A program made the position numbers and the translations under genes. From a virus, in IMG/VR virus record IMGVR_UViG_3300042559_000699, positions 1-45,818 of that record: a stretch of DNA of 45,818 nt. One strand, written 5' to 3'. This document shows, in pieces, positions 1 through 43,807 of the stretch; positions within the stretch are counted from its first letter, which is position 1, and each line of letters starts with the position of its first letter. The notes beneath the pieces were generated by a model, which saw only the letters and a list, made by a program, of their open reading frames with translations, ran no database searches and was not told the origin of the DNA.

Positions 1-127
1 GTTCGTAGGCAAGATGAAGAAGAGCGATGCCAAGAAGTGGGAGACCGCCTTCCTTACCCTTCTGGCCGTCAACAAACCCAAGGCGCCTTACTTCTCTGGT
101 AAGCCGCTACGGATCATTGTGGCCCTG
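1..127. repeat. terminal direct overlap, left copy (circular contig)
   Basis: These 127 bases are identical to the last 127 bases of the window. The copy interrupts a resolvase reading frame that becomes continuous when the two ends are merged, so the window is a closed circle of about 45,691 bases. The length 127 equals a k-mer size commonly used by short-read assemblers, so an assembly overlap is likelier than a physical terminal repeat of the virion DNA. Confidence 0.95.
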
Positions 128-25475: not shown

Positions 25476-25912
25476 TCACGGCCAATCCAGTCGATGGGAT
25501 CATAGATCTCGTTAAGCGCAGAGTCACTGATCCTGAGTTCTGGGAATCTTCGTTTTCTGACGATAACTACCTGAAGCAGTACATCGCCTTCCATCTGCTT
25601 GGGGGCAATGGAGGGTGGGTTACCAACGATGACGGCCTGATCACAGGCGCGATGATCGCGTATGAATGCGATGAGGAATACGCAAGAAATCGGTTTATCT
25701 GGAAACCTCCTACTGGGAAAACTTGTATCTTTGTTGCACAAGTTGTCGCGGACGATGACGAATCGCGCGATAAACTTGCCCATATGTTCTTAGATATGTT
25801 CCCTACGCGAAAGCCCTGCTACGGACTTCGCAAGGGCGCTTTTACCGCTATGAATGGCCACGATATCGCTATCAAACTGATCGGAAGGAGAACCTCCAAT
25901 GGGCGGCGGTAA
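25472..25912 (+). CDS. uncharacterised virion-region protein, 146 aa (probable CTG start)
   Basis: I do not recognise this protein. The frame is open from the end of the fibre gene, and the conserved-looking part (D-P-E-F-W-E-S-S-F-S-D-D-N-Y-L-K) lies upstream of the first ATG (25652). A CTG at 25472 overlaps the upstream stop as CTGA, in the same way that GTGA junctions start three other late genes here, so I use it. Downstream sequence (I-F-V-A-Q-V-V-A-D-D-D, then M-F-L-D-M-F-P-T-R-K) is alpha/beta and may be acetyltransferase-like, but no motif is decisive. An ATG start would give 86 aa. Confidence 0.55.
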   Translation: MITANPVDGIIDLVKRRVTDPEFWESSFSDDNYLKQYIAFHLLGGNGGWVTNDDGLITGAMIAYECDEEYARNRFIWKPPTGKTCIFVAQVVADDDESRDKLAHMFLDMFPTRKPCYGLRKGAFTAMNGHDIAIKLIGRRTSNGRR

Positions 25913-27236
25913 AGGCCCAGAGACCCCTCCTCCGAGGGACTACTACAAGGAGACCTCCGACTCCCTTAGGGCGCAGGTCAATATGGCCCCGCAGTTGTAC
26001 GCCGCTGAGGCCGCGTTCAGGCCGCAGTACCAGCGCCTTGAACTGGCTGGGTATAGAAACAGCCTCCTAGGCAGAGTTACCACTGACGATCTTAGCGCTA
26101 CGAGTAGGGCCGAATATGATGCGGCCGTGGCTGAAGCCGCTGGCGCAGACGCCAAACTTGCCCAACTACAGAACCAGCGAGCGGCTATCCAGCAAGGCAT
26201 CAGGGTTGGAAGAAAAGGTCAGATCGTCTACGACTCGGCTGGACTCCAGCGCGTTGACGCCGAGATCGACAGACTTAACATTCTAAAGCAGACACCGATT
26301 GACCCTGCCTCGTTCAGCGACAGGGGTCTTATCGACATCCTAGAAAAGGATGTGATGCCCTCTATGGCCCGCGCAGAGGCTATTACCACCTCGCGCCAAA
26401 GAGCGTCTGATATCGCCGATGTAGAGGCTCTAGGCCAGCGGGCGTCCCAAGCCTACCTTGATGCTGATCCTAGATCCAAGGCTCTGATTGAGACCCTTAA
26501 CGCTCAGGCTATGTCTGCCCTCCAGCAGAACGGCGCCCTGACCCCAGAACAGCAGAGATTCGCCCTTCAGACGGCCAGAATCGGTATGGCTGATCGCGGC
26601 CTTGCTATGGGCAATCAGGGTCTTGCGGCCGATGTCCTAGGAACCTACCAGTTAACCGAGGCCCGCCGTACAGCCGCCCAACAGAACGCTGGGGCTGTCC
26701 TTGGCCTAAACAAGCAGTTCACCGCTGATCCGTTCCAAGCGATCCTTGGCCGTCAGGGTCAGGCTTTCAACGCTGGTATGAACCAACAGCAGTTTGCCAG
26801 CGGATTCTCCCAGAGCATCGGCCCGCGCCTGTTCAATCCTGAATCTCAGTACGCGGCTGATCTCAGCAACAGCAACCAGCAGACAGCCGCCGCCTACGCG
26901 GCCGCCCGCGCGCAGGTTCAGTCCGCTACCATCGGCGCCGTTGGATCCGCTATTGGCGGCATCGGTGGAGGTTGGGCGCAAGGTCTTGGAAGTGCGGCTA
27001 AGGCCGCTGGGTCTGGTTGCTGGGTGGCTAGAGAGGTGTACGGAGTTGATAATCCCAAGTGGGTTATCTTCAGAGGATGGATGCTTAACGAGTCTCCTGA
27101 ATGGTTCAGATCTACATACCTTAAGCACGGCGAGAAGTTTGCTGAGTACATCAAGGACAAGCCCCTGCTGAAGGCTGTCATTCAGGAAGGTATGGATCTT
27201 ATCGTCTACCCAAGAATGACCAGAATTTATGCCTGA
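25899..27236 (+). CDS. internal virion protein with CWVAREVYG-type C-terminal domain, 445 aa
   Basis: The long helical body is Ala/Gln-rich (A-E-A-A-G-A-D-A-K-L-A-Q-L). A glycine-rich amphipathic segment follows (G-A-V-G-S-A-I-G-G-I-G-G-G-W). Residues about 373-445 form a domain starting C-W-V-A-R-E-V-Y-G and continuing W-V-I-F-R-G-W-M-L. I recall this C-terminal domain from many phage structural proteins; its function is unknown. With the next two genes it makes the usual podovirus set of three proteins ejected ahead of DNA. It overlaps the following gene by 8 bases. Confidence 0.7.
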   Translation: MGGGKGPETPPPRDYYKETSDSLRAQVNMAPQLYAAEAAFRPQYQRLELAGYRNSLLGRVTTDDLSATSRAEYDAAVAEAAGADAKLAQLQNQRAAIQQGIRVGRKGQIVYDSAGLQRVDAEIDRLNILKQTPIDPASFSDRGLIDILEKDVMPSMARAEAITTSRQRASDIADVEALGQRASQAYLDADPRSKALIETLNAQAMSALQQNGALTPEQQRFALQTARIGMADRGLAMGNQGLAADVLGTYQLTEARRTAAQQNAGAVLGLNKQFTADPFQAILGRQGQAFNAGMNQQQFASGFSQSIGPRLFNPESQYAADLSNSNQQTAAAYAAARAQVQSATIGAVGSAIGGIGGGWAQGLGSAAKAAGSGCWVAREVYGVDNPKWVIFRGWMLNESPEWFRSTYLKHGEKFAEYIKDKPLLKAVIQEGMDLIVYPRMTRIYA

Positions 27237-29604
27237 AGGATCTCGCCCAATCTCCAAGCAGTACGAAGGACAGCGCGTCAGTACTATTCCTGACGGATTT
27301 CTTCAGGCTTACGCTCAGGTAGGCGCCAACATCCAGAACACTGGCAAGGCCATCGGTGAAGGCATTGGTGGTGCTATCGCCGCGTACAAGCAGAACCAGC
27401 AACAGCACGAAATTGCTGACGGAACAGCAAAGGCTCAGTTTGCCAAGGTCGGAGAGATCAATAACTACCTAGACGCTCAGATCAAAAATACCCCTGACGA
27501 TGTCAAGGGTATGGCCACTGACGAAAAGACTACGGATCCTAGGGCGCTTGCTTACCGCGCGATTATGGATGCCAAGGCAACATTGGCAAAAGATGTCGGC
27601 GCTTGGACTGATAAAAGCCTTACCCAGAAGACGGCCGCTCTTGGCCGTATGTCTATCCTGACTAAGTTCGCCGAAGACTTTAAGGACGAAGAAGCAAAGA
27701 GAAACGCCGCGACTGCGGCTGGTGTTCAATGGAAAGCGGAATTTGACAGAAAGACCGCATCGGATGCGCTTGAAAGAGCCAAGTGGTTGGCCTCAACCGC
27801 TGGGATCAGGGGTGCTGATACGCTTGCAGGATCTCTTAATGCTCCAGAACTAGTTACGGCTTCAGAAGGAAAGATCGGGTTGAATCCTGAGTTTGTTAGG
27901 GCTTTTGAAAACGCGAAACAGCAGATCACGGCCGCTATTGCGGCCACACCTGCTACCGAAAAGGACGCCATTGCCGTTCTTAAGAAGCAGGAAGAGGAAC
28001 TCAACGCTAGGTTTGTTCAGGTTTCTGGACAGGCTTCTGGATTCGACAAGGCCGCCAATGATCAGACCGCCGCAGTCAGCGCCGCTCTTCGCGAACCTGC
28101 TCAGGCTAAAAGGTATCTTGCTGAGATCGATGCCAAGATCGCAGATCTTACCGCTGGCAGAGGTGGCGTTGAATTGGCACCTAAGGCAGTTCAGGAAGAA
28201 CTTAAGTTCCTCCAGCAGGAAAAGGATGAACTTCAACAGGCTATTGCGAAGTCCGAGAAAGGCCCGAAGGACTGGCTCGGTGGACAGGCTATTGTCGATT
28301 TCCAGCCTACGACAATCCGCGCAAGATTTGCTAGAGAACTGAACGCCACTAACGCGGCCACTGTCTGGGAGGCTTCTATGAAGTCTCAAAACCTCCCTGT
28401 TACACCTGCGGCAAAGGCTTGGGTTAAGGAACTGGCTCTTTACCACGGAGAATCGACATCTGACGGATGGAGGATCCGAGTCGATGAGAAGACAGGCGGT
28501 ATCACTAGAGAGCGTGATCCAGACTTCGTCAGATGGTATAAGGCCAAGGCAAACGGAGAAAACCTTACTGGTCAGGAACTGGCTGACTTCGAAAAGGCTG
28601 AAGCGGACGCCGCAAGCCGCGCTATGAAGGTTAGCATCCAAACGCTTGGCATCAGAACCCCTGATGGACTTGCACCTAGCCTTGAGATCCACGACAGGCA
28701 CACAGGCGCGTTCAGCATCTATGTGAGAGGACAGATGCTTCTGGATTCTCAGGAATCTATGAAGGTTCGAAAAGAGGTTCAGGACAACAACCAGTTGATG
28801 AATGCTCTTGGAAACCTGAGATCCCTCCTGAGCCAGAGAACTGCCGATGGTAAAGGCATCGTCTACAAGCAGGTGACAAGACCTTCCAGTCCTGAAGAAA
28901 AGGCGGCTGGAAAGGGAGACACGATCACCGAAGACGAAATGAAGGATGGATACAGAGTTCCTGTCCTTAGAAAACTTTCTGATCTGTCCACGCCTGAGAA
29001 ACAACAGTTCACCACTGCTGTCGCTACATTTATCAGAGTTAAGGCTAAGGGACTTGGTGTCTTGTCTAAGACTGACTGGGATTACCTTCGGACGCTGGCC
29101 CCTGATCTTGGCCCACAGTTCTCTGAGAACTTCAACCTAAAGGAGGACAGCGCGATTGCGACAGTCGCACAAGCGATGCTCAGTTCTATGGTCATCAAGT
29201 CTGAGGACTTCGTCTCTCGTATCGATCAGCAGATGGCTGACATTTCCGCTAATATGCGCGTCTACCTTGCTGGCATCCCCGCCAAGGGTACAGCGAGCGG
29301 TAGGCTTGAAGTTAGCGGTGGTGCCGCCCAGCGTGTCGATGGATCTAAGTTGTATGGCCAAGATCTCAGCAACTGGTGGGATATGGTCTCTGCGGCCAAG
29401 ACGGATGGCATTACATACTCAAACGACTGGAATGATATGCGTACCGATATCGCTGTCGCATTCGTAAACAGAAAGAAGCCTGACGGCCCCCAGTCTGGCC
29501 CCGCCTACTACCAGAAGAAGTACGATGAGTTTACTGCCTTCCTATCGCATAAAGGTCTGGATACTCAGCAAATTCAGTTCATCCTTAAAAAGTACAAACA
29601 CTAA
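27229..29604 (+). CDS. internal virion protein, 791 aa
   Basis: This is a large, mostly helical protein with coiled-coil stretches (residues about 150-290, E-E-A-K-R-N-A-A-T-A-A-G, then L-K-K-Q-E-E-E-L-N-A-R-F) and a Gly/Ala amphipathic N-terminal helix (I-G-E-G-I-G-G-A-I-A-A-Y). The second half is more globular. No catalytic motif is visible. Position between the CWVAREVYG protein and the giant protein supports a role in the ejection apparatus, comparable in place to T7 gp15, although no sequence similarity is claimed. It shares one base with the next gene. Confidence 0.65.
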   Translation: MPEGSRPISKQYEGQRVSTIPDGFLQAYAQVGANIQNTGKAIGEGIGGAIAAYKQNQQQHEIADGTAKAQFAKVGEINNYLDAQIKNTPDDVKGMATDEKTTDPRALAYRAIMDAKATLAKDVGAWTDKSLTQKTAALGRMSILTKFAEDFKDEEAKRNAATAAGVQWKAEFDRKTASDALERAKWLASTAGIRGADTLAGSLNAPELVTASEGKIGLNPEFVRAFENAKQQITAAIAATPATEKDAIAVLKKQEEELNARFVQVSGQASGFDKAANDQTAAVSAALREPAQAKRYLAEIDAKIADLTAGRGGVELAPKAVQEELKFLQQEKDELQQAIAKSEKGPKDWLGGQAIVDFQPTTIRARFARELNATNAATVWEASMKSQNLPVTPAAKAWVKELALYHGESTSDGWRIRVDEKTGGITRERDPDFVRWYKAKANGENLTGQELADFEKAEADAASRAMKVSIQTLGIRTPDGLAPSLEIHDRHTGAFSIYVRGQMLLDSQESMKVRKEVQDNNQLMNALGNLRSLLSQRTADGKGIVYKQVTRPSSPEEKAAGKGDTITEDEMKDGYRVPVLRKLSDLSTPEKQQFTTAVATFIRVKAKGLGVLSKTDWDYLRTLAPDLGPQFSENFNLKEDSAIATVAQAMLSSMVIKSEDFVSRIDQQMADISANMRVYLAGIPAKGTASGRLEVSGGAAQRVDGSKLYGQDLSNWWDMVSAAKTDGITYSNDWNDMRTDIAVAFVNRKKPDGPQSGPAYYQKKYDEFTAFLSHKGLDTQQIQFILKKYKH

Positions 29605-32600
29605 TGGCTGATCTTACTTTCAGAGGCTCTGGTGAAATCGATGCTGGGATCAAGCCACCGACCCCAGAGGAGATCAAGAAGAAGGAGGAAGCCGCCGCCG
29701 CTGAAAAGGCAAAGGCTCCTGTTGTGCTTGGAGCATCTACCCTCACTGAGGAAGAAACAAAAGCCAACGAAGCCGAGGCTTATCGCTTTATCCTCACTGG
29801 AGGATCCAAGCCTATCGATCCGACTAAGACTCCTGATGACGCCATTATTAAGGATCTGGTCGATAAGCATTATGACGAGGCTTACAAGGCGTCTAAGGCT
29901 AGGCTCGACAACCTAGCGCCTATCACAGGCCCAGCGGAATTGTCTCCTGAGGACAAAGACAATTACGCAAGAAGACTTTGGCAACAACACGCGGAGGATA
30001 GATCCACGCACAGACTGCTGGATGATCAGCAGAAACTGATAATGATGGAGTTTGCCCTTAAGAACCACTCTGAGGTCGATAGGATCAGAAACACCTACGG
30101 CCAGCACCAGAGCATTATGGATCACATCCAAGGCGGTGCTTGGAGTTATATCAAGTCTGTCAAAGTTCCCGCACTAGGTGGCCTTTCTGCTGGTCAAGTC
30201 ATTGGCATCGGAGACACGGCTAAGGCCAAGCAGTCTCAGTTTGATCAAGTTTACAAGGAACGCGCAGATGGTCTTACTTACTTCTGGGATACGCTGAAGG
30301 AGTTGAAAGAAAACCCTAAGAACTACAGAAAAGAAGTAGTTGATGAAATTATTGCTGAGGTAGAGAAAAATCCCGATCTTCTTACTAAGGATGAGTTGGT
30401 AAAGCACCCTAAGATCGCCGCAAAGATCAAGTCCCTGAATCGAATTGAGTACGCCGACTTTATGTTGGCCCTCAAGCACGAATCTGTTTTCGGAAAATGG
30501 AAGACAGATAGAAGACGAGTCAGAATCACAGACTTTCACCTTGGCGCTTTAGACAAAATCAAGGATTGGGATGACGGATACTATAGCGCCGTAAGTTTCG
30601 ATCACGAAAATACTGTAAACAGCCTTCTCGCTCTTTCAGACCCTGCGCTAGGCGGTATGGGCGCTCTTACTGGAAGGGATCTTGAAAAGTTCAAGGATCC
30701 TGAAACTAAGGCGAAGAACAAACTAGTCTATGAACTAGATAAGGAGGCCAGTGATCTTGATAAGATCAACCCTGCAAGTTTTGCCATTCGCAACTGGGGA
30801 AGAGGAGGGACTGTATTTGCTTACGGAACGACAGAACTTGAGTCTATGGCAAAAGGCATCGCGGGTGTGTACTACAACGCTTCCCCGATGGGTGTTGCTG
30901 ATGCCGCTCTCTCTGGTGCCAATGTCCTAGGCAGACAGATCATCGGTACGCCTCTTGATCCTACAGGCGCTTGGGGACACTTTAAGACAGGCAAGTGGGG
31001 CGACTGGTGGAGAATGATGACAGGCGAAGTAAGCCTTCAGGATCCCAAGGTGATGGTGGCGTCCTTTGACGCCGCGATGAAGAATCAGGACGAGATCGAA
31101 GCCCACAGCAACGGACAGAGATCCGTGCTTGGTTCTAGAATCCTTTCTGCCGTTTCCTCGTACACCACGGAAGAAGTGCAGGCTTCTATGCACAAATACG
31201 GCGCGATGAACGCCGAACTGGTGAATGTCGGTATGATGCGTATTATGCCTTCTGCGCTCGTTGGCCGCGCCAGCGTTGTAGGAAGGGCTGGTATGATCGA
31301 AGGAAGGGGTGTTCTCGGCGCTGTCGGCCAAGGCTTTGATACCCTTGCCAAGAACGGCATCATCAGACTTGCCACCAAAGACGCCATTGCTGGTAGGCTT
31401 GCCCAGTACGGCGGCTACCTAGAAGCCGCTGAAGGCTGGACGCTTGGACTACCTGTTAAGGTCGTAGGCTTTACGCTGAATCGCGGCGGCAAACTTATTG
31501 TCGGCACGATGGGCATTGCTGGCAACTCCATCGTTAAACTTGCAGAGTCTATCTCCAAGAGAACTGGCGCTAACCTTGATCCCGCCTTCATCAAGTCCAC
31601 GATGAAGACAATTGGCATCACTGATGCCTTCCTCGGATTCGGATACGGACGACAGATCGCGGGCATCTTCGGCTTTGGTAAAGGCGCAAAGGAGATCGGC
31701 GGCATTCTTGAGAAGTACGGCTACAGAGATTCCTCCAGAACTGGCGTTGGCCTTGTAAGCACACTTGAGGCCATTGAGGCAGACACGACCCTTACGGCCG
31801 CCACGCGGTCAATTGCTGGCGTAGGATCTAAGTTCCTAGGCCCGCTAACATCAGGCTTCTACGATATGGCCAAGGGGTCTTGGCACGGCGCTGGAGTGGG
31901 CTATGGCCTTGGATTCCTTCAGGATGGTATGCGCGGAGGCATTGATGGTATGTGGGGAGGCGTTGGTATGGGTGGCGCTGGCGCTATCCATATGTCTTGG
32001 GCGCAATACAGATCTGGCGCCAACACTCATAACGGCGCCGTAGCGGAGATCAGGAAACACGCCAAGGGTACTACCAACGAACAGGTCGTAGAGGAGATCA
32101 TCAGAGGTGCTGAGTTTGATAGGGACTGGAACAGAGTCGCTATGCTTGTCGGGGCGCATCGTATGGCCAACGGCATCAACACTAAGATGATCATCCACAG
32201 GGAAGGTGACATCGCTCACATCAACGGAAACATCCTGAAACTTGATCAGGTTCTTGATGCCGACTTCAACATCGGTGGAAGACAGTACCGCGTAAGAGAA
32301 CTTAAGGCTGAGGTCGAAAGGCTTCACAGACAGGCCGAAGCGGAGGCTATGAATGATGCCACGCGGGATAATGCCGCCGAAACAAGAAGGCTTGCTGGCG
32401 AAAGAAACGCGGAACTCCAGTTGGAGATCAACAACTGGCTTTCCGATGTCCGTATGAACGGAACGGCAGAACAGCGCCTAAGAATCAACACCAGACAGAA
32501 CGCTTACAACGGAGTCTTTATTTCTGGTGGCGCGGGCAACGGAACTATCTACATTAACGCCGACAGATCAGGATTGGTTGGCGGTAGCGGATACGCGACC

Positions 32601-35600
32601 AACACAGTTGCCGCGCACGAAGTATTCCACGCCATCCAGAAGGCTATCTTCAGGGAACAGGCCATCTCCCACTTCGCCAACACCCTCTGGGGCATCAGCG
32701 CCGAGGGCGGCAAACTAGTCCTCCAGCGCGGGGCCATCGATGCGAATACCCTAAAGGACTTTGCCGATCTGTACGCAGACCAACTCCATCAGGGAGACCC
32801 TGCTGGCAAGCAGAAGGCTCTGGACGAGATCCAGTCTGCTTGGGATACGATCAATAAGGATACTGCGACTGAACAGCAGGTGTCTGGAGCGCGCGATGTC
32901 CTTAATCACTACGCGGAAGAGTTCGGCGCTTACTACTTCGAATCATACATCTCTCGTCACAAGGCTGACTTTATGTTCCGTGGAGGAAACGGATCTGGCC
33001 TTCGGAGAATTATGAATCAGGTCGAGAACTTCATCGATTTCCAGACGAAGTTGGATCTCAACGGCCAAGGCATTGCTCTTAGAATCAAGGATATCCAAGA
33101 GTCCAGAAACGGAAAGGACGCCAAGGAGACGATCAAGAAACTGTCAGAAGTCAGCAGACTTGGATCTAGAGTCAGGGAAAAGATGGAAGAACTGGTCGTC
33201 AGAAACGCGGACGGCACTATCGCCAAGATCAAGAACGAGGCTTTGTTCGATGCCCTTTCTCGCAAGTTGCAAAGGCTCGGAGCCGACAAGATCGCTCTGG
33301 AAAGAACCCTCAAGAAGTCTGGCGTTGGCGAGATCTTCAGGGACAAGGATGGTAACTACCTAGTTGTCGAGGCCGCTGATCGGATGATGGAAGACCTGAT
33401 GAAGCGCCTTAGCAATAAGGGCGCCAACAACGCTTTCGACCTTTCTACTGTTCCTGCCAACGAACTTCCGTCCATCCTTGCGCGCGCGGGACTTGAACAC
33501 TGGGCAGACTCCAATGGAAGACTTAAGTCTCCTGAGGTGATTGAAAAGGAGAGAGCAGATCGCGGTAAGCGGATGCTTGAGTTCTTCAAGAGCCAGAATC
33601 CTGTCGTCACAGGCATCGTGGTCACTACCGACAAGAACGGCAACGAGCGCGGAACTGGCACCATCACCAACGAAGGTCTCAAGATCCTCAAGGACTCTGG
33701 GATGCTCCTGCCGTCAGAGGTCATCAAACTCGCGGCTATGCGCGATGTGATCAACACTGTGAATGGCATCAACCCCCTTGGCGGCGGCGAAGTGCAGTTC
33801 ATCTACAATGGTCTGACGCACGAATACATCGCTGATGATGGTCAGGTTGATCGCCTGAGAAAGCCCAAGAACATCGTTCTGCCTACATTCCGAAGCGTTG
33901 TTCCGTACAGAATGGAATTCGTTATGACCAGCAAGGATCGTAACGGAAACACTGTCGCGCCTCATTTTGAGGTGATGGTCACGGCCATCGATATGGGTGT
34001 CGTCTTGGAAAGAGCGGCGGCTGAATTCAACAACTCTTACACGCTACCCAGCGGTGAAGTCATCAATGTGGCTGATCTGTTTGGTGGATCGATGGAAGTA
34101 CTGAAGCATCACCTGAGAAGATATACGGAAAACCTTTCCGAAGGCGGCCTTCCCAGCGCTGATCTGTTCGGCGGCGGCGAGAAGGGCGCGGCAGTCAGAG
34201 ACATTATGTTCAGGGTCTTGGGCGCCATCCCGAAAGGTGGCTTCGGCCCTAACGGCGAAGCACTGCTGTACAACAACCCGATCATCAGGCCGTTCCACGC
34301 TTGGGAACGCGGCCCGCAGTTCCCCTTCACTACATTCAGATTGGATCTGATGCAGGACATCAATGTCACCACAGGCAATTTCAGATTCAACGAAACGACT
34401 GGTTACCCAAGAGCCGCTGGAAACTATCAGGCTCCCCAGTTCGGAACAGCCAGAGTCATCGAAAAGGACGGACAAAAACTTAGCGTTATGGAGGCTAAGT
34501 TTGAATTCGATAAGGTCAGAAAGAAGGATGGCATCGTTACGCAGTCTACCGCGCGCTACACGATCACCTCTGACAGCAAGAAGTGGACTGTCGCGGCAAA
34601 CGACTTCGATAAGCCGTATGTATTTTCCACATTGGCTCAGGCAAAGGACTTCATCCACCTTGATTCTCAGAGAAGAAAACTGATCGGTGCGAACCAGTTG
34701 CCCGCTCACCTTATGGGCGGCGAAAGCGGCATCGTTGTGGCCAACATCGAAGGCAACTACCTGCTCATTGATACGACAAAGAAGAACAGGATCATTGCTG
34801 GTAAGCGTTTCACAGGAGAAGTTCAGGCGATCATCGAAGCCTCTAAACTGCACAACAAACTCCTTCTGGATAACCTCAGAGCCTCTAAGCATCCCTCGCT
34901 TAGGCTCTTTGAGGCTCAGATGGCGAACTTCGAACGGATCTCGGCTAATAGCCCTGAACTGCTACCCCCTAGACTTGATATGGCCAAGGATGGTACGCCG
35001 AAGACGGAGGCCATCAAGGACAAGGACGACAAGGAAGTTAAGTATACTGCTGACGATCTTGAAGTTAAGCGCGGCCTCGTAAAGATCGGCGCCACTAAGC
35101 GCGTACTCAAGTTCCAAAAGGTGTCCTACAGCCTGATGGAGGCTCTCCTTGGATCCAGCCACTATCGTATGGGCGATGCCGCCGTAGACGCGGCCGCAGA
35201 GCAGGTCTCACAGCATTTGTACGATGAGGCCATCCTTGCCGCGAAAGATCCTGACAAGAAGAAGGGTCTTGGTTGGTACAGAAATATGGTGCGCGATGGC
35301 TACGGAATCTTCGGATCCGTATATGGTATGTTCGCCGAAAGTCAGGGAGCCACATCTGCCCGCACACCTGTTGCCGAGAACTTCAAGCAAGCCGAAGAGG
35401 CTTTGTCTATGTTCTCCAGAGGCAAGTACAACGACACGCTGTCACGGATCCACCAGCAACTTCAGGCTCTTCACGACAAGTACGGAAGGCAGGATCCAGC
35501 CACTGGCATCTCGGAATTTGAAGCAGAGGCCATCGATCTTCTTCAACAGAAGGAAGCCGCGAAGAGAGCCAATGCCGCCAACCATTCCGAATATGAGTGG

Positions 35601-38600
35601 GACGACATCGTTAACTTCAGGAACCTGAAAGGCGAAGACGCGATCCCTGAGTCTGTCGTCAAAGATTTTCTTGAAGCCTACGCTGAGTTGCAGAATGGCC
35701 CAAGGAAGCGCCTGACAGCCGAGCAACTTTCCGAAGGTCTCAATGCCGCCAAGAGCAAGATCTTCAGAGATCAGGCGAACCTGATGCTCAGAGAGAACGG
35801 AAAGAAGTACAACGCGAACACAGTCAAGGTCGGTCAGGTGATGTACAACATCTGGCACGAACTTACCGAAGGCCCGAAGACTCCTAACTTTGCTGGCAAC
35901 CTTGCTGGCACGACACGCGAAGCCACCATCGATGTGTGGGCGGCCAGAACGCTTCATCGAATCATCAACCAGAAGATCAACGGCCGTCAGATCTGGCGCC
36001 TCAGCGCTGGTATGGAAACTGGCGTTGACTACATCTGGCATAACCACGGAACCGCAGATATGCCCAAGTGGGAGGGCGGCGGTGACTTCTTCTTCGGCCA
36101 GTTGGCCTTTGAGAAGGCGGCGGCCAAACTGAGAGAGTTGGGAGGCGAGTTCGCAGAGATCCAGCCTGACGACCTACAGGCTCTTATCTGGTTCCACGAA
36201 AAGGGAGTCTGGGAAAAGAACGGATGGACTCAGACAATCGGCGCTGAGATGTCGTCCTTCGAAGGCCCGATGGGCCAGTTCTCTGGCGCCAAGGATCCCG
36301 CTCGCATCGATGACTACCAGAACATCAGACGCCTTCTTGCTGGCTTTGCTGGATCCTACGATGCGGTAGGCGTAACTCAGATCAGAGGCGTACCTATGCA
36401 GGTCAGGGGTTCTGGCAGACGCTTTGCCTTCCCTCAGGAAAAGATCGAGCAGATCGGAGGCTTCGTGGCCGATGCGCTTGGTAGCGCCCTTAGAGGATCT
36501 AACATCGGCCAGACCATCGGCGTTACTGGTGGGAAGTCTGAGCATTCTCTTATGTTCGATGTCATCGCGCATAGGGGCAACCTCACCACGCTTGCCAACG
36601 CGCACGGCGTATTGCTCAAGCAAGCCAACAACGAAGCCAGACTTCTTAAGCAGTACTCGGAGCAACTCGCCGCCGAACTTGACTTCAACAAGCGCGGAAT
36701 CCTTGAGAACAAGATCAAGAAGAAAACCAAAGACTTCGACAAGGCCAAGGCCGCCGCCGATAGGGCTGAAGCAAATCTCAAGGCCGAGCAGACGGATCCG
36801 ACCATCAAGAACCAGTTGGGCATCCTTGCAGAGTACCTGATCACACAGGCCAAGAACTATTCCCAGAAGGATGTCTATGTCGCCGAACTGGTAGGAGAGA
36901 ACCATCCCAACGCTAGACCTGCTGGCGATGTTATGTTCGGATCTCACCTGTCTCAGCAGGACGCCCTGATCATCGCCAAGAAACTCTCTGAGGCCCATCC
37001 GTATATCGATGGCTTCACGCTGATCCCTGACCCTCGCAATCCTAACGCCGCTGAGATCTCTAGGCTCACCAACGAGCATTCCAAGTTGGATCCTAACAGC
37101 GAACAGGCCAAGTCGTTACAGAAGAAGATTAATTCGCTCACCAGATACATCGGCGTTCAGGCCGTATGTACTCCTGAACTCACAGCCAGAAACAGAGAGT
37201 TCAGCAAGGTTCCTGAGGTTAAGGAAGGCAAGAGAGACCTGCTTGTCGAAGCCGATGCCAAGTGGTATATGGCCGAATGGCAGAGAGGTCTCAAGGAACT
37301 GATCGACTCTAACTCAAACATCAATGGAACCCAACTCCGACTTAATCCGTTCAATGTCAGCGCAGAAACAGTCCCGCGCGGCGCTTTCGACACCTTCAAC
37401 AGCGCTGAAATCGGCCGAGATGTCCCCCTTGCCGCAAGACTCCAGCGATACAAGAATGGCCTCGAAAGAGAGTCAGCCCTATCCCTCGAAAACGAGAGAA
37501 CAGGAGATCTATTCACCACAGAATCGACAGCCCTCGCGGATAATCGGACGACTTGGTCTCCAACCAGCACCGAGCGCGGGGTCGGGGGTGGAGTCACAGA
37601 TGCTCTGGCAACTGATGCACAAGGACAGGGTGCGGCCAGTCCCAAGGGCAACCTGATCCTGACGGCCGAAAAGGCCACGGAATGGATCAAGGCGAAACTA
37701 CAGAACCCGATCCTTAAGAGCGAAGGCGGCGTGGTCTGGGGTGACAAGAACTACCAGATGACGCAGAAACGCGGCAAGGACGGCAAGTTGACCAATGTCT
37801 TTGAAGTGATCGGCGCCTTCGACAGAAAGCCTGAGATAATCGTTGGCAGAAAACAGGCCGAAGCCCACCTGATGGGCCGCCTTACTGGAGAGATCGCCGC
37901 CAAGGGAGGTGAGCGCATCATCGAGGTGAACGGAGAACAGTTCAAGGTGAACGAGGCCACGAACCCTGTCTTCGCCACCGACAGCGCGGCGCTGGTAAAC
38001 ATTGGCGTCTACCCAGATACATCGAACATCTTCAAGTACCGCCCTGACGACAGCCCGACTGTTGAATTCCACAAGTGGAACAGCAAGACTGTTGAAGAGG
38101 CGTTCCCGAAGAGACGACCTGCTGGATCTGCTCCCCTGCCGTACTCGCACAGAATGGCGAAGTACATCCAGCGTCTGAATGCGCTTGTGAGCAGACTGTC
38201 TAACTCAAGCGGTATGGCGTCCATCGATTTCCAGATGGACACTTACGGAAGCGATACGCCCGCTGGAGTGGGCTACGATTGGGGTACTGGTCATTACAGA
38301 ACATTCGACATTATGATCAAGGCCACAGGGATCGACAATCATCCCGCGTTCCCTACTGGCCGAAGATCAATCACGATTGGACATACGGACGGACAGGTTC
38401 ACGCCGTCACAGTAAAGGATCTTCAGTACTTCCTGACTCAGACAAACCCAAGCCCTCAGCCTAAGGACGCTCCCAACAGAACGGCCGAAGACTATGGCAA
38501 GATCGGCGGCACTGTGGTTATGGAAGGCGCCACATACGGAACTGTAAAGGGGCTTAACCAACTGTTGAGCGATCCTGTGATGCTGGCCGAGTTCAATGCC

Positions 38601-41600
38601 AAGATGGCCGAGGACATCCAGAAGAACGGACAGATCTACGGAGCGTATGGTGAGTACTCTTATCTTATGAGTTGGCTGTCCGAGAAGCAGGTCAAGTTGC
38701 GCTCGGAATATGGCGATAAATTCCAAGATCTCGACAGCAAGGGTCAGGCGTACAATCCAGACGGAACAGAAGCGAGGGAACTTCAGGAGATCAAGGACAA
38801 GAGAATCGTTATCACGAAACTCGTTGATACCTTGTATGGATCCCACAACTTCGCGCATCTCGCGCAGGTGCTGGACATCCCGATCACGATCAAGAACCTG
38901 TACGAACTTGCTTACGAAATTCAGGGCGCTGGCGATGCCGTGAACGCGGAAGCGGGCGCCAGATTCAAGGCGGCTGGCCTGTTCTCTGAGGGATCCAGAG
39001 GTCTATCCTCTTACATCGTCAACAAGACTGGTGCGGTCTTTAAGAACAGACGAAACACCTACGGCGAAGGCAACACTGTGTTCAGAATGCACGATGCCAA
39101 CTCCACTGTGACTAGGGACTCGGCGGCGGCCATTGCGATCAATCAGACTCGCGTCAACGCAGACATCCAGACATTTGTAGATCCAACGCGCAATTTTGCC
39201 GCGTCCAACATTGGATTTGATCGTGCATTCAATGACACAGGAACTAAAGGAAACGGATCTCTGTTCAGTCAGTATGCCGAACATCACCTGCCGAAGAACA
39301 CCAACATCAGGTACCAAGTCGATTCTGCTGGAAACATTTCAGTAGAGGCATCGAACAAGGATACTGGTAACTCCGTGTTCTCGTTTAACATCTCAAAGAA
39401 AAACGAAAGAGGAGAAGTAACAATCAGCGGTGCTTCCGTATCTGAGACTCCTGAATCCATTGCGAAGAAGCGAGAAAGCAAATGGTACAAGGAAGAAACC
39501 GACTCCGAAGGAGTTCTTAGATTCTACAAGAGCGGAAGAAAAATCATCATCGATGAACTTGCAGGACATCCTGATCTGAAGACGGCAGTACTCAGAGAGA
39601 CTATCGAGAGACTTAGACATACAGGAACAAAGAGCGTATTTTACGATGGATTTGACTCCGTAAACATCGAAGGCTTTGTGCGCGATTCGTTTGGTAAGGA
39701 TCCTGAACTAAGCCAACAAGGCTGGGAAGCCGATGAAAGCGGATGGAATATCGATAAGGGGACAAAGTACTCTCCGTCCTTCGTTCCGTTCGAACGCCTG
39801 TTCGATGAGCAGGGTCTGAAGAGCGGCGATCAGTTCTGGAGCAAGACTGCCGCCCGCGAACTTGCTGGAAGATACTCGCTCGACTTCGAACAGGTTAAGG
39901 ACGCCGAACTTCGTGAAGGTATGACTGATGCGCCTATGGGCGCGAACAAGATGAACACGAAGGACTTCCCGATGACATTCATCACGATCAACGACAGCGG
40001 CTACAGAGGTGAATCTGCCGCTGAGTTTTATCTGATGATGAATCGCGAGGCTCCAGAAGGCAGACCTACGGAGACAAGCCAGATGGCCATCCTTCAGATG
40101 CGCCGCAAGGCTGACCACATCACCATTGAGCCGATTATGGGCGCTCTGGCCGAGATCGTTGAACGCCTAAAGATGGCTGGCGTCACTCAACTTTGGATCC
40201 CTAAGGATGGATACACGGCGGCTGATTACAGAAAGTTGACCGATGAGGTTGTCGATGTGTACACCAAGATGTACGAAGGACAATACGATGTAGAAGGCGC
40301 AGACAGGGATTTCGTCACTAATGTAGACGAACACGATGGTCTTAAGATCGTGTTTGCTGGATCTAAGCACGATAAGCCAAGCCCGCTTACTACTAAGAAC
40401 GGCCCTGTTGATGTATGGAGAATCGACAGAAAGCACAGATACAGCGCTTCAAACGCCCCTGACGGAAGTTTCGCGGAGCGGATGATCCAGACGAACATCG
40501 AGAAGTTCGGACTGACACGCGACCCATACGAAGGCGGCTACATCATCGCAAACGGATCTATGCTGGACTTCTCTGGCCGCAGGGACGCATCTGGGTTCAA
40601 GAGGGAAGGCGATTACTTCGTTCCGAGCGGAAGAAAGGGAAGAGACGACTTTGTCGGACAGCGCTACACTGATCACCGCGAAGTAGATCTTCCTGACGGC
40701 GCGGCCGCTCCCCATCAGGATCGGTTCTCAGCAAGCAGGTACAATATGGTTCGCGCTATGCAAGCCGCTGGCGCTATCCGTCTGTCCCACACTGTGGATC
40801 ATACGCTACTCGATATCGGCCTTAAGCCTACATCGTCTCAGTTGTCCGTGATCAAGGATCTGGTTCGCGATTCAAACGAATCCAGAGAGATCACTGTTGA
40901 TCTCAGGGACACAACAAGACCTGACGAGAACGGATGGGAGCGCGAGGCTGGCCTTAGATACCCTGCTGGCACTGATCCGATGAGGATCATCAGAGACATT
41001 AATCGCTTCTACAATGGTCAGGATGTTAAGACTGATTTCAGTCCCTCCAACTTAGGCGCCAACGAATCGATGGCTGGCGCTCAAGCCAAGTACAAGGATA
41101 ACCCCTATATGGTTACTTCCGTGTACTACAGCAACTGGAAGAAGGGCGCGCTTAAGCAGGGAGAAAGTGCTGACTGGTGGTCGTTCTGGGAGCAGAACGG
41201 CGGCACACTTGATGAACTAGTGTTCGTCTGGCAGATGGCTCACGATCCGAAGACGGATACGAGCAGTATCTCGATGATGGACTTGAAGAATATGATCATC
41301 AGGCAGAAGAACGCTGGCAACCTCAGGTACGACAAGATGAGCCTGAAGGAACAGAACGCGATGGATCTGCTTCTGTTTATGGATGCCTTCTCTGGCACGA
41401 CATACGAGAAGGGCGAGAACCCGCTGGCCAGACAGTTGCTGGACTCTCAGGTGAAACTGGATGTCCGCAATGAGAGATCTTCCGCTGAGGCCAATGACGA
41501 ATCTCACCTGATGAGTCAGGGTGGAAAGTGGTTCTCCACAACTCCTGACTTCGGCACGATGATCGAAGAGTGGAACCATATGCTTTATGGTTCTATGATG

Positions 41601-43469
41601 GAGCGCGCTGGTGGAGATCACAGCCGATGGGAAACTCTTCTCAATCCTCCTTCGTTCTTGGAATCCAGAAGGCAGACTTCTGGCTCCAAAACAAACAGAA
41701 GGTTCGTGATGGGAGAAAGCGAAGCCCACGCGGAAGGTCTAAGCCCGATCCCAAGAATGGCGATGTACAAGGACGCGCCGTCTTACATCGCGGCTATGAG
41801 AACGGCTATGGCAGAGCGTATTGCGTTTATGAAGACGCAACACGAAAAGGCCAGCAAGTTTGCCAAGCACGATATGGGGATCGATATCCCCGCCGACTCA
41901 GGTCAGGAACTCGCGCGCGACATCATCCGACAGGCCGCGATGCATACCATCGTTGAGGCTTGGTTGCGTACTCTTGAAGGAACACAGGCCCGCGATATGG
42001 CCTCAATGTCCGACAGCATCTATGTTAGGCGCGCCAGAAAGGATCTCGGAAGAGAGCCTACGGCCGCTGATCTGGCCCTTGGCAGGGCCGATCCGAGCAG
42101 ATTCACTTCGGATGGATACCCGCGCAAGAATCCTCCGTGGGGAACAGCCAATCCTCCGATCAATCCTGTCGGCGCTTCTGGATACAAGTTCTCGCTTGAA
42201 GGCCCGCGCACCTACAACGACCCGAAGGGTACGGCTTGGCACAAGGACTACAACTTCGTCACCATCGTGGAATTCGTGGCTGGTATCCTCAAGTCTCCCC
42301 AGACTCAGGTCTACCTGTCTGATCTTCCCGCGATGGAGAAGTCTCCTCTGGACGATGTGCTTCAGCACCTTGAGCAGAATGGTCAGGGCGAATCCCAGCA
42401 GTACGCCACTGAACTGAACGGACTGTGGAAGAAGTCGGTAAATGTGTTCCAGCAGTTGGTCGCCTCCGTCAGGTTGTACGCTCAGGTGTTCTCTTCGAAG
42501 GGTAACTGGAGAGAGAAGATCAAGCGCGGCGAAGCAGATCCGCGCGTTGAAGCCCTTAACCAGTACGCTGGTAAGCCTGAAAACCATAAGCGCACCCTCC
42601 TCGATGACTCGATCAAGGCCGCGTTTATGATCAGGCCGCGAAGCCTGACCACTGAGACTACCACCTACCAGAGAAGGAACCACGGAACCACGGAGACGGC
42701 CGTCTTCTCTTCGAAGGGTCTTGATGCCGTGGCCAAGGCTTTGCAGGAAGTCAGAACCAAGGCCAGCACTGTGGATGATCAGGGCGTCATCTATCCTAGC
42801 AGTGACACGATCCCTCATTACCTAGAAGCGCGTAAGCACATCAAGGACACAACTGACGCTCTGGCCAGTATGGCCGAGGATGTGAAGAAACAGGCCGCCT
42901 TAGACGCAGAGGCTAAGGTTGGCACCAAGGATACGGAGAAGAAGACACTGCAACTGTATACGCCCAAGAAGCCTGAAAACGCCGTTGTGTTCGTACCTGC
43001 CAGAAAGATGTTCTGGGCGCTTCATAGTGAAGTTGAGATCTTCCACAGGGACGGCCCTTGGGATGGATTTGGTCGTAATCTGAAAGGCAAGTTCAACGCC
43101 ACAGAAGGCAACCACGCGGTTGACTGGAATTCGATGGACACACCTGCGATCAGAGATCTTGTCGCCCTGTACAGACGGACTGTTAGCGAGAACAAGACTG
43201 GATCTATCCCGATGATTGAACTCAGCAGGAATGATATGAGTTACGGATGGCGCGGCCTAGAACACAGCGCATCGCTCATCAAGGATCCGAAAGGATACGC
43301 CGTGTATGTAAGAGATGCTAACCACCCTGAACTCCAGTGGCTCAAGGCGCTCGCGCTCCACGCTCCGAATGAGATGGTTCCGATCCAAGTTCCAAAGGCC
43401 AACGCCGCTTGGTTCAAGAAGCACTTCTCTAAGGATGCCTCGGCGCCACCCCTTAAACCTATCCAATGA
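29604..43469 (+). CDS. giant polyvalent-type virion protein with HExxH metallopeptidase, 4621 aa
   Basis: This one uninterrupted frame spans 30% of the genome. Residues 1-600 are helical, without a recognised domain. Gly-rich hydrophobic helices (about 614-650, 675-705, 750-802) may touch the membrane. The metallopeptidase core is H1005-E-V-F-H1009 with Y-A-E-E-F-G-A-Y-Y-F-E at 1103-1113 supplying a likely third ligand. A K-T-P-x-F-A-x-N-L / T-I-D-V-W module lies at 2092-2112 and L-Q-A-L-I-W-F at 2191-2197. A low-complexity linker is near 2650. A module with G-Y-I-I-A-N-G, L-D-F-S-G and D-H-R is at 3645-3692. Short motifs such as K-Y-S-P-S recur at 3388-4195. Context and architecture suggest injection with the DNA to protect it or act on the host. 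No polymerase signature is seen. Confidence 0.8.
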   Translation: MADLTFRGSGEIDAGIKPPTPEEIKKKEEAAAAEKAKAPVVLGASTLTEEETKANEAEAYRFILTGGSKPIDPTKTPDDAIIKDLVDKHYDEAYKASKARLDNLAPITGPAELSPEDKDNYARRLWQQHAEDRSTHRLLDDQQKLIMMEFALKNHSEVDRIRNTYGQHQSIMDHIQGGAWSYIKSVKVPALGGLSAGQVIGIGDTAKAKQSQFDQVYKERADGLTYFWDTLKELKENPKNYRKEVVDEIIAEVEKNPDLLTKDELVKHPKIAAKIKSLNRIEYADFMLALKHESVFGKWKTDRRRVRITDFHLGALDKIKDWDDGYYSAVSFDHENTVNSLLALSDPALGGMGALTGRDLEKFKDPETKAKNKLVYELDKEASDLDKINPASFAIRNWGRGGTVFAYGTTELESMAKGIAGVYYNASPMGVADAALSGANVLGRQIIGTPLDPTGAWGHFKTGKWGDWWRMMTGEVSLQDPKVMVASFDAAMKNQDEIEAHSNGQRSVLGSRILSAVSSYTTEEVQASMHKYGAMNAELVNVGMMRIMPSALVGRASVVGRAGMIEGRGVLGAVGQGFDTLAKNGIIRLATKDAIAGRLAQYGGYLEAAEGWTLGLPVKVVGFTLNRGGKLIVGTMGIAGNSIVKLAESISKRTGANLDPAFIKSTMKTIGITDAFLGFGYGRQIAGIFGFGKGAKEIGGILEKYGYRDSSRTGVGLVSTLEAIEADTTLTAATRSIAGVGSKFLGPLTSGFYDMAKGSWHGAGVGYGLGFLQDGMRGGIDGMWGGVGMGGAGAIHMSWAQYRSGANTHNGAVAEIRKHAKGTTNEQVVEEIIRGAEFDRDWNRVAMLVGAHRMANGINTKMIIHREGDIAHINGNILKLDQVLDADFNIGGRQYRVRELKAEVERLHRQAEAEAMNDATRDNAAETRRLAGERNAELQLEINNWLSDVRMNGTAEQRLRINTRQNAYNGVFISGGAGNGTIYINADRSGLVGGSGYATNTVAAHEVFHAIQKAIFREQAISHFANTLWGISAEGGKLVLQRGAIDANTLKDFADLYADQLHQGDPAGKQKALDEIQSAWDTINKDTATEQQVSGARDVLNHYAEEFGAYYFESYISRHKADFMFRGGNGSGLRRIMNQVENFIDFQTKLDLNGQGIALRIKDIQESRNGKDAKETIKKLSEVSRLGSRVREKMEELVVRNADGTIAKIKNEALFDALSRKLQRLGADKIALERTLKKSGVGEIFRDKDGNYLVVEAADRMMEDLMKRLSNKGANNAFDLSTVPANELPSILARAGLEHWADSNGRLKSPEVIEKERADRGKRMLEFFKSQNPVVTGIVVTTDKNGNERGTGTITNEGLKILKDSGMLLPSEVIKLAAMRDVINTVNGINPLGGGEVQFIYNGLTHEYIADDGQVDRLRKPKNIVLPTFRSVVPYRMEFVMTSKDRNGNTVAPHFEVMVTAIDMGVVLERAAAEFNNSYTLPSGEVINVADLFGGSMEVLKHHLRRYTENLSEGGLPSADLFGGGEKGAAVRDIMFRVLGAIPKGGFGPNGEALLYNNPIIRPFHAWERGPQFPFTTFRLDLMQDINVTTGNFRFNETTGYPRAAGNYQAPQFGTARVIEKDGQKLSVMEAKFEFDKVRKKDGIVTQSTARYTITSDSKKWTVAANDFDKPYVFSTLAQAKDFIHLDSQRRKLIGANQLPAHLMGGESGIVVANIEGNYLLIDTTKKNRIIAGKRFTGEVQAIIEASKLHNKLLLDNLRASKHPSLRLFEAQMANFERISANSPELLPPRLDMAKDGTPKTEAIKDKDDKEVKYTADDLEVKRGLVKIGATKRVLKFQKVSYSLMEALLGSSHYRMGDAAVDAAAEQVSQHLYDEAILAAKDPDKKKGLGWYRNMVRDGYGIFGSVYGMFAESQGATSARTPVAENFKQAEEALSMFSRGKYNDTLSRIHQQLQALHDKYGRQDPATGISEFEAEAIDLLQQKEAAKRANAANHSEYEWDDIVNFRNLKGEDAIPESVVKDFLEAYAELQNGPRKRLTAEQLSEGLNAAKSKIFRDQANLMLRENGKKYNANTVKVGQVMYNIWHELTEGPKTPNFAGNLAGTTREATIDVWAARTLHRIINQKINGRQIWRLSAGMETGVDYIWHNHGTADMPKWEGGGDFFFGQLAFEKAAAKLRELGGEFAEIQPDDLQALIWFHEKGVWEKNGWTQTIGAEMSSFEGPMGQFSGAKDPARIDDYQNIRRLLAGFAGSYDAVGVTQIRGVPMQVRGSGRRFAFPQEKIEQIGGFVADALGSALRGSNIGQTIGVTGGKSEHSLMFDVIAHRGNLTTLANAHGVLLKQANNEARLLKQYSEQLAAELDFNKRGILENKIKKKTKDFDKAKAAADRAEANLKAEQTDPTIKNQLGILAEYLITQAKNYSQKDVYVAELVGENHPNARPAGDVMFGSHLSQQDALIIAKKLSEAHPYIDGFTLIPDPRNPNAAEISRLTNEHSKLDPNSEQAKSLQKKINSLTRYIGVQAVCTPELTARNREFSKVPEVKEGKRDLLVEADAKWYMAEWQRGLKELIDSNSNINGTQLRLNPFNVSAETVPRGAFDTFNSAEIGRDVPLAARLQRYKNGLERESALSLENERTGDLFTTESTALADNRTTWSPTSTERGVGGGVTDALATDAQGQGAASPKGNLILTAEKATEWIKAKLQNPILKSEGGVVWGDKNYQMTQKRGKDGKLTNVFEVIGAFDRKPEIIVGRKQAEAHLMGRLTGEIAAKGGERIIEVNGEQFKVNEATNPVFATDSAALVNIGVYPDTSNIFKYRPDDSPTVEFHKWNSKTVEEAFPKRRPAGSAPLPYSHRMAKYIQRLNALVSRLSNSSGMASIDFQMDTYGSDTPAGVGYDWGTGHYRTFDIMIKATGIDNHPAFPTGRRSITIGHTDGQVHAVTVKDLQYFLTQTNPSPQPKDAPNRTAEDYGKIGGTVVMEGATYGTVKGLNQLLSDPVMLAEFNAKMAEDIQKNGQIYGAYGEYSYLMSWLSEKQVKLRSEYGDKFQDLDSKGQAYNPDGTEARELQEIKDKRIVITKLVDTLYGSHNFAHLAQVLDIPITIKNLYELAYEIQGAGDAVNAEAGARFKAAGLFSEGSRGLSSYIVNKTGAVFKNRRNTYGEGNTVFRMHDANSTVTRDSAAAIAINQTRVNADIQTFVDPTRNFAASNIGFDRAFNDTGTKGNGSLFSQYAEHHLPKNTNIRYQVDSAGNISVEASNKDTGNSVFSFNISKKNERGEVTISGASVSETPESIAKKRESKWYKEETDSEGVLRFYKSGRKIIIDELAGHPDLKTAVLRETIERLRHTGTKSVFYDGFDSVNIEGFVRDSFGKDPELSQQGWEADESGWNIDKGTKYSPSFVPFERLFDEQGLKSGDQFWSKTAARELAGRYSLDFEQVKDAELREGMTDAPMGANKMNTKDFPMTFITINDSGYRGESAAEFYLMMNREAPEGRPTETSQMAILQMRRKADHITIEPIMGALAEIVERLKMAGVTQLWIPKDGYTAADYRKLTDEVVDVYTKMYEGQYDVEGADRDFVTNVDEHDGLKIVFAGSKHDKPSPLTTKNGPVDVWRIDRKHRYSASNAPDGSFAERMIQTNIEKFGLTRDPYEGGYIIANGSMLDFSGRRDASGFKREGDYFVPSGRKGRDDFVGQRYTDHREVDLPDGAAAPHQDRFSASRYNMVRAMQAAGAIRLSHTVDHTLLDIGLKPTSSQLSVIKDLVRDSNESREITVDLRDTTRPDENGWEREAGLRYPAGTDPMRIIRDINRFYNGQDVKTDFSPSNLGANESMAGAQAKYKDNPYMVTSVYYSNWKKGALKQGESADWWSFWEQNGGTLDELVFVWQMAHDPKTDTSSISMMDLKNMIIRQKNAGNLRYDKMSLKEQNAMDLLLFMDAFSGTTYEKGENPLARQLLDSQVKLDVRNERSSAEANDESHLMSQGGKWFSTTPDFGTMIEEWNHMLYGSMMERAGGDHSRWETLLNPPSFLESRRQTSGSKTNRRFVMGESEAHAEGLSPIPRMAMYKDAPSYIAAMRTAMAERIAFMKTQHEKASKFAKHDMGIDIPADSGQELARDIIRQAAMHTIVEAWLRTLEGTQARDMASMSDSIYVRRARKDLGREPTAADLALGRADPSRFTSDGYPRKNPPWGTANPPINPVGASGYKFSLEGPRTYNDPKGTAWHKDYNFVTIVEFVAGILKSPQTQVYLSDLPAMEKSPLDDVLQHLEQNGQGESQQYATELNGLWKKSVNVFQQLVASVRLYAQVFSSKGNWREKIKRGEADPRVEALNQYAGKPENHKRTLLDDSIKAAFMIRPRSLTTETTTYQRRNHGTTETAVFSSKGLDAVAKALQEVRTKASTVDDQGVIYPSSDTIPHYLEARKHIKDTTDALASMAEDVKKQAALDAEAKVGTKDTEKKTLQLYTPKKPENAVVFVPARKMFWALHSEVEIFHRDGPWDGFGRNLKGKFNATEGNHAVDWNSMDTPAIRDLVALYRRTVSENKTGSIPMIELSRNDMSYGWRGLEHSASLIKDPKGYAVYVRDANHPELQWLKALALHAPNEMVPIQVPKANAAWFKKHFSKDASAPPLKPIQ

Positions 43470-43807
43470 GTACGAACCCTGATTTCGGCGCGGCCGCCGA
43501 GGACTTCAAAAGAGGCGGCTGGGTCGTCTCGTTGCTAGGAGGGGCTGGGATGTTGGCGCGTATGCTGATCACTGATCAGTCGTCTCCGCTCATCATCTGG
43601 ATCAGAAAGACCATAGCCGCTGGCATCATTGGCGTGATCGTCTACTTTGCTTTGCACAGCGTAGACATCTCAGGTCTGTACAAGGCGCTGATACTGGCGT
43701 TCTCTGGTATGGCCTCACCTGAGGTGGTTGAACTAGTTGTATCAAAAGTGAACAATGCGAAAAACCAAAAGCCAGAAAAGCCAAAGCCCAAGCGCAAGCG
43801 CCGCTGA
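43466..43807 (+). CDS. holin-like membrane protein, 113 aa
   Basis: Three hydrophobic segments (about 18-35, 48-63 and 71-93) and a strongly basic C-terminal tail (K-P-K-P-K-R-K-R-R) fit a three-span holin. The opening G-G-W-V-V-S-L-L-G-G-A-G-M-L resembles phage holins of the lambda-like or LydA-like sort. Holins make holes in the inner membrane at a set time and release the endolysin. It overlaps the giant gene by 4 bases and the next gene by 53 bases. It is the best holin candidate in the window. Confidence 0.7.
   Translation: MSTNPDFGAAAEDFKRGGWVVSLLGGAGMLARMLITDQSSPLIIWIRKTIAAGIIGVIVYFALHSVDISGLYKALILAFSGMASPEVVELVVSKVNNAKNQKPEKPKPKRKRR

Follow-up and report, generated by a model that had tools for sequence, protein, structure and literature searches.

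A 4,621-residue protein, probably an ejected polyvalent protein, takes up 30% of a short-tailed-type phage genome

Our analysis of a viral DNA of 45,818 nucleotides (IMG/VR record IMGVR_UViG_3300042559_000699; this whole stretch is called the window here) suggests that its largest gene (29604..43469, + strand; 4,621 aa) encodes a polyvalent ejection protein that is packaged in the virion, injected, cleaved by a zincin and able to act on the host through its modules. We give this reading as a whole a probability of roughly 0.73. Its parts differ in strength: packaging and injection are likely, processing by the zincin is plausible at slightly under even odds, and any named activity of the modules is doubtful. 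By context, composition and common domains, the protein is best classed as an ejected polyvalent protein of a phage. We favor ejection because the gene closes the virion module and adjoins a holin-like gene, as the DarB-like giants close theirs before the lysis genes, and because its near-absent cysteine resembles that of known ejected giants; we favor a polyvalent protein because the chain carries a zincin motif and domains common to canonical polyvalent proteins.

In the course we propose, the giant would be synthesized late, with the virion genes, and packaged in the head alongside two ejection proteins of 445 and 791 aa. Together with the DNA it would leave by the short tail, its chain unfolded or threaded, and then refold, and such a passage would select against cysteine. 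Inside the host the predicted zincin (HEVFH at residues 1005-1009 plus a distal Glu) would cleave the chain, and the freed modules (a DUF7178 unit, a tandem array and a shared polyvalent domain) would act on macromolecules of the host during the first minutes of infection. If the giant is injected, the phage spends 30% of its genome on a protein used in those first minutes, most of whose modules are unknown.

Results

An earlier note on this DNA, made from the letters alone, described a single intact frame of 13.9 kb that encodes 4621 aa and fills 30% of a 45.7-kb genome, and that description holds. The frame runs uninterrupted from ATG to stop over 13,866 nt (about 512 kDa) and carries, by codon scoring, by far the strongest coding signal of the window. 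The two ends of the window are identical, an exact 127-nt direct repeat (1..127 with 45692-45818) as in a complete circular or terminally redundant assembly; because this repeat is exact at both ends the assembly closes to a genome unit of 45,691 bp, of which the giant gene makes up 30.3%. No classical transmembrane segment was found in the giant protein, including residues 1-790 (29604..31973, + strand), where a fast-evolving N-terminus is followed by a Gly/Ala-rich stretch at about 560-790.

Scans of IMG/VR returned four relatives of the giant, all from uncultivated viruses: 3300042519_001014, 3300003499_000179, 3300044568_001517 and 3300033571_004214, called G001 to G004 in that order. The giant is again one frame in G002 (4,879 aa), G003 (4,883 aa) and G004 (4,096 aa), and in G001 it is cut by the contig end after 3,450 aa. 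Identity to the window protein is 61-63% for G001-G003, from residue 1 to about 3,450-3,616, and 41% for G004, over residues 48-3351, beyond which the C-terminal modules differ. Among 50,697 phage records there was no match to the first 2,400 residues and a single matching record, over about 180 residues, to the remainder; the GTDB species genomes held no relatives of the giant. The G003 contig also repeats its first 127 nt (1-127), at 46208-46334; about 1.1 kb of unrelated sequence comes after the second copy, and the pattern probably reflects an overlap in the assembly graph with an additional branch.

The giant is under purifying selection: a comparison of G001 with G002 over 3,449 codons, throughout the frame, gives a dN/dS of about 0.11. 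The order of its flanking genes is conserved in three relatives. Divergence across the virion genes is uneven: between the window and G002, identity is 99% for TerL, 96% for the capsid and 92% for the portal, compared to 61% for the giant and 57% for the 791-aa protein, whose divergence among relatives equals that of the giant. While the rest of the virion modules is nearly identical, the giant and its 791-aa partner change fast, as expected for host-facing parts, and the two have possibly been exchanged as a block. Near-identical packaging genes beside a 61%-identical giant point to host-driven change, and make the modules of the giant good candidates for new anti-host or anti-defense functions.

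The late genes run in the order TerL, portal, scaffold, capsid, short-tail proteins, giant and holin-like gene. TerL (12943-14550), scaffold (17556-18560) and capsid (18590-19759) were assigned using PHROGs and codon-usage gene calling, and the portal (14712-17153) by similarity to annotated portals. Directly before the giant stand a 445-aa gene with one cysteine (25899..27236, + strand), a proposed internal virion or ejection protein, and a 791-aa gene with none (27229..29604, + strand), a proposed ejection partner that overlaps the giant by 1 nt; upstream of the former lies a protein of 502 aa that shows weak similarity to a beta-helix. The earlier note had called these two genes internal-virion-like. 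They do precede the giant, are conserved and Cys-poor, and keep their order relative to the giant in relatives, but they match no named internal-virion family. The note placed lysis genes after the giant; there, the holin-like gene (43466..43807, + strand), with a weak match to phrog_785 in PHROGs (18.5 bits, E 0.0026), begins inside the stop codon of the giant (ATGA overlap). Beyond the lysis region, adjacent genes for tRNA-Arg(tct) and tRNA-Thr(tgt) lie on the minus strand (44956-45105). Distant from the holin-like gene, a small gene at 3641-3979 resembles a lytic-transglycosylase/lysozyme fragment; its only match in PHROGs is very weak (12.3 bits).

Replication and recombination are represented, by PHROGs matches, by a RusA-like resolvase, a DnaC-like loader, an O-like initiator, an exonuclease VIII-like protein and an Erf-type annealing protein; the genes scanned included no recognizable integrase, DNA polymerase or RNA polymerase. 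The genome is of the short-tailed-phage type, and its gene content bears on whether so long a frame within a late operon could be an ordinary tape-measure or tail/adsorption protein. A tape measure of 4,621 aa would mean a tail several hundred nm long, and the late genes scanned hold a short-tail set, then the holin-like gene, with no tail-tube, chaperone or baseplate genes among them; the giant itself has no tape-measure family match. We rejected the tape measure on gene content and regard it as extremely improbable. As we infer the packaging of the giant, a non-virion late protein, secreted or intracellular and made during infection, also has to be considered. Against it speak the conserved place of the giant beside Cys-poor genes of the ejection type, where the virion module ends, and the precedent of such giants found in virions (PMC9144972), and we think it highly unlikely.

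The composition of the giant agrees with ejection. It has one cysteine in 4621 residues where 49 would be expected from the rest of the phage (90/8475, 1.06%; P 1.9e-20) and 34 from the other virion genes (30/4052; P 4.3e-14), and the three proposed ejection genes together encode 2 cysteines in 5,857 aa. Among the controls, cysteine is absent from N4 vRNAP (0/3500), gp51 (0/644) and gp52 (0/150), from T7 gp15 (0/747) and gp16 (0/1318), from BcepIL02 gp70 (0/4667), gp66, gp68 and gp69, and from Parlo gp81 (0/3764). The DarB-like giants of Skulduggery, ZX1, POI1126 and Itty13 likewise have none, nor does the giant of the distantly related phage C75C1 in its visible 2,524 aa, whereas polymerases and terminases in the control phages contain 0.85-1.7%. 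In the record of Pseudomonas phage Itty13 (NC_070969; L041 3033-15368), the region of its giant, a DarB-like, Cys-free frame of 4,112 codons with an HExxH, is covered by three genes annotated as hypothetical on the other strand.

Absence of cysteine is a correlative marker of ejection and is not exclusive to ejected proteins: no cysteine occurs in the N4 MCP (0/401) or in a head-closure protein of 728 aa from C75C1, and T7 gp13, with 3 cysteines in 138 residues, is a counter-case. Nor is the marker new, because it has been used as a hint toward a vRNAP in phage StenR_269 and was also noted for Zobellviridae (PMC10747016). Threading through a narrow tail may favor the absence of cysteine; a preprint on N4 describes the route of the vRNAP through the tail as unknown and cites an unfolding model (PMC12633501). 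Combined with genome position, near-absent cysteine offers an easily computed marker by which ejected proteins can be recognized in uncultivated phages, one that separates the known ejected giants from polymerases and terminases in the control phages.

The same trait could indicate a divergent N4-type virion RNA polymerase injected for early transcription, as proposed with its help for StenR_269 (PMC10747016); the size of the giant and its N4-like HExxH would fit, as would the lack of another RNA polymerase among the genes scanned. However, four vRNAP Pfam models that match N4 gp50 at 77-326 bits, our positive control, find nothing in the giant, no 400-residue block of the family profile matches N4 vRNAP, and the replication parts (O-like initiator, DnaC-like loader, exonuclease VIII, Erf) are lambda-like and unlike those of N4. 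The Pfam result with its N4 control and the block-profile search led us to reject a vRNAP identity, which we consider very unlikely. The earlier note had reported a lack of RNA-polymerase motifs, which these scans bear out, and had asked whether matches would reveal an ordinary tape measure or virion RNA polymerase; we sought both and found neither.

Residues 876-1160 (32229..33083, + strand) are predicted to form a zincin-type metallopeptidase. HEVFH at 1005-1009 (nt 32616-32630) is preceded by a strand-like GTIYINxDxxG, and an invariant AEEFG, within AEEFGxxYFE, follows about 100 residues downstream. Both the HExxH and AEEFG...YFE motifs are kept in five family members, down to 41% identity, with the form HELAH in G004. 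Since chance alone would give about 0.14 bare HExxH in a protein with this length and composition, it is the conservation and the distal Glu that carry the case. In Pfam the region matched DUF5700 below threshold (17.9 bits, cut-off 25), and a PDB sequence search with it returned nothing useful. HExxH or HExxxH also occurs in N4 vRNAP and in the giants of BcepIL02, Parlo, Rhodobacteraceae phage LS06-2018-MD07 (LS06) and IMG/VR contig L021. Far downstream in the chain, the C-terminal block contains an invariant EEWNH (41565-41579, residues 3988-3992), also found in the L025 giant near GVMLEEIMHSVQ, and the unrelated C-terminus of G004 has EEIMH; these may be degenerate zincins in which Glu stands in place of the first His, or a metal site of another kind.

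Profile searches in slices, which the earlier note had proposed together with structure prediction, added one domain above its cut-off to the DUF5700 match. The C-terminal half of DUF7178 (PF23802; motif GPKTPNFxxNLAG...TIDVWAAR) lies at residues 2069-2118 (35808..35957, + strand) and scores 31.1 bits in a 500-aa slice and 23.3 bits in the whole-protein scan against a cut-off of 27, covering profile positions 92-143 of 193 (52 positions). DUF7178 is found in other polyvalent proteins: in LS06 with a sub-threshold ART-PolyVal and a methyltransferase, in zth2-2 with an ART-PolyVal above cut-off and LPD22, and in Roseobacter phage CRP-738; LPD22 is above cut-off in both L021 and zth2-2. In the LS06 record (OP947163; L010 8521-17673) a CDS labelled 'methyltransferase' in fact encodes a polyvalent protein of 3,102 aa that combines a zincin motif, domain D (described below), the sub-threshold ART-PolyVal, a methyltransferase and DUF7178. 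Some depositors label stand-alone mycobacteriophage copies of DUF7178 'glycosylase', and its conserved Lys and VD motif resemble, by eye, HhH-GPD glycosylases; the profile matched no solved structure in the PDB, and a DNA-glycosylase-like fold for this unit is a guess.

A highly conserved block at residues 1330-1850 (33591..35153, + strand), with no known domain, reaches 76% identity to G004, compared to 41% overall, and predicted long helices or a coiled coil at 2310-2397 (36531..36794, + strand) lie between modules. Further on is an array of two or three units, depending on the phage, bordered by (K/R)(Y/F)SPS-like seams. In the window, unit A (residues 3190-3386; 39171..39761, + strand) is homologous to unit B (3387-3610; 39762..40433, + strand) at an hhalign probability of 92%, with KYSPS at the start of unit B (39765-39779), and an RYSAS seam (40437..40451, + strand) marks the site that lacks the third unit of the relatives. 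That unit, about 256 aa, follows unit B in G002 and G003, and its N-terminus is related to unit B (hhalign 95%); G004 keeps a related first unit (hhalign 96%) and then has other units. Domain D (residues 3630-3812; 40491..41039, + strand), with a DFSPS seam at its end, is common to the polyvalent proteins of LS06 (E 4e-9) and L021 (E 4e-8), and is followed by a conserved C-terminal block (3840-4399; 41121..42800, + strand) that has no known domain and is missing from G004. One G004 unit gave a sub-threshold GNAT match (PF00583, 17.5 bits, cut-off 20.7) and nothing useful in a PDB sequence search; hhalign did not link it to the window units, and a GNAT identity for the window array was dropped.

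These seams raise the idea of a self-processing effector cassette, in which swappable modules with several undescribed folds would be separated after injection by zincin cuts at (K/R)(Y/F)S(P/A)S. If true, the giant would be a modular, evolvable injected toolkit and the seam motif could predict cleavage products in other giants, yet we consider this unlikely. There are five [YF]SPS in G002 and G003 against 0.05 expected, in units that are homologous and copies that are not independent, and six DarB-like giants (BcepIL02 gp70, Parlo gp81, Skulduggery, ZX1, POI1126 and Itty13) contain 20 [KR][YF]S against about 9 expected, an excess that is significant singly only in Parlo. On these two grounds (K/R)(Y/F)S as a general cleavage signal was set aside and kept as a lead. 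In the same six giants [KR][YF]S often falls at zincin-domain borders (about 132-139 residues past HExxH in three of them), and the reversed S[YF][KR] occurs 0 times against about 9 expected.

The earlier note also pointed to large stretches without a recognized domain, and indeed about 4,000 residues have no match in Pfam; the parts scanned in PHROGs and NCBIfam gave nothing useful. Its view of an extreme multi-domain injected protein agrees with the position, the cysteine content, the zincin motif and the common domains, but the 'many effector domains' are largely assumed because those 4,000 residues match nothing in Pfam. Structure prediction did not help, as the AlphaFold2 models of residues 1325-2425 (5 sequences, mean pLDDT 45.7) and 3150-4330 (4 sequences, mean pLDDT 36.5) were both unusable; with the poor first model Foldseek found no match at E <= 0.001 and VIA-align matched only long helices at 2310-2405. 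Because prediction failed with four to five close sequences, 'no known domain' here means no sequence match rather than a new fold.

A mainly structural internal-core or ejectosome protein, a conduit like T7 gp16 with no effector role, would also sit after other ejection-type genes, and would be consistent with the Gly/Ala-rich stretch, the coiled coil and the few recognized enzymatic domains. However, the best-conserved parts are mid-chain blocks rich in invariant charged and polar residues, the C-terminal modules are gained, lost and swapped among relatives, and polyvalent proteins with ART and methyltransferase domains also contain DUF7178, the zincin motif and domain D. We regard a purely structural role as rather unlikely and prefer the polyvalent ejection protein.

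Discussion

Three features by which polyvalent proteins are recognized are seen in the giant: a late virion gene location, seen in the gene order and its conservation in relatives; an HExxH with a distal Glu, at the motif level, in five family members; and, in domain D and DUF7178, domains common to recognized members. As to distinct activities in one chain, it shows a zincin motif and a partial DUF7178 of putative activity, and the remainder is unmatched. The claim of the earlier note that this is an undescribed system does not stand, as virion giants before lysis genes are documented. JC1 gp69 (4,515 aa, 22.1% of its genome) was found in virions by mass spectrometry and is the last virion-module gene save two small reverse-strand genes (PMC9144972), and comparable virion giants include BcepIL02 gp70, that of Parlo (PMC6606913) and the polyvalent-protein class of Iyer et al. 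2017 (PMC5512222). In that class P1 DdrB is processed before packaging, and zincins have been proposed to cut polyvalent chains (PMC5512222).

The DarB-like giants of Bcep22-like phages (BcepIL02 gp70, JC1 gp69, Parlo gp81) are, like the window giant, single proteins of 3,700-4,800 aa, Cys-free in those read, with an HExxH motif and a place as the last virion-module gene before the lysis genes. They differ in showing no detectable sequence relation to it (BcepIL02 gp70 and Parlo gp81 were compared) and in taking about 18-24% of their genomes (22% in JC1) compared to 30% of a smaller genome here. No block of the family profile matched BcepIL02 gp70 or Parlo gp81, and DarB homology was rejected. 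Pfam scans at E 1, in slices covering the whole giant, found no helicase and no methylase that would indicate a SWI2/SNF2 helicase and adenine methylase dyad.

The ejected proteins of N4 and T7 are alike in composition. N4 vRNAP gp50 is an ejected giant without cysteine and with HExxH, as in the window, but its vRNAP domain is missing from the window protein. T7 gp15 and gp16 are Cys-free ejected proteins co-encoded late in the virion module, much smaller and with no sequence relation to the giant; T7 gp16 carries a transglycosylase, and no such domain was found in the giant.

The polyvalent proteins of LS06 (3,102 aa) and L021 (with LPD22) have domain D in common with the giant, and LS06 also DUF7178; both further share the zincin motif, the late-gene context and a lack of cysteine (for LS06, in the part read). 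Their domain order differs, and the window giant has no ART or methyltransferase match and is unmatched over most of its chain. In G001-G004 we see the same giant (41-63% identity) with the same flanks, with three array units instead of two in G002 and G003 and different C-terminal modules in G004. The giant is unusual for its modular C-terminal array and its very large unannotated portion, and is not a new kind of system. Judged by sequence, it appears to be a new, isolated family among the giant ejected polyvalent proteins, following a strategy known from Bcep22-like phages, N4 and P1.
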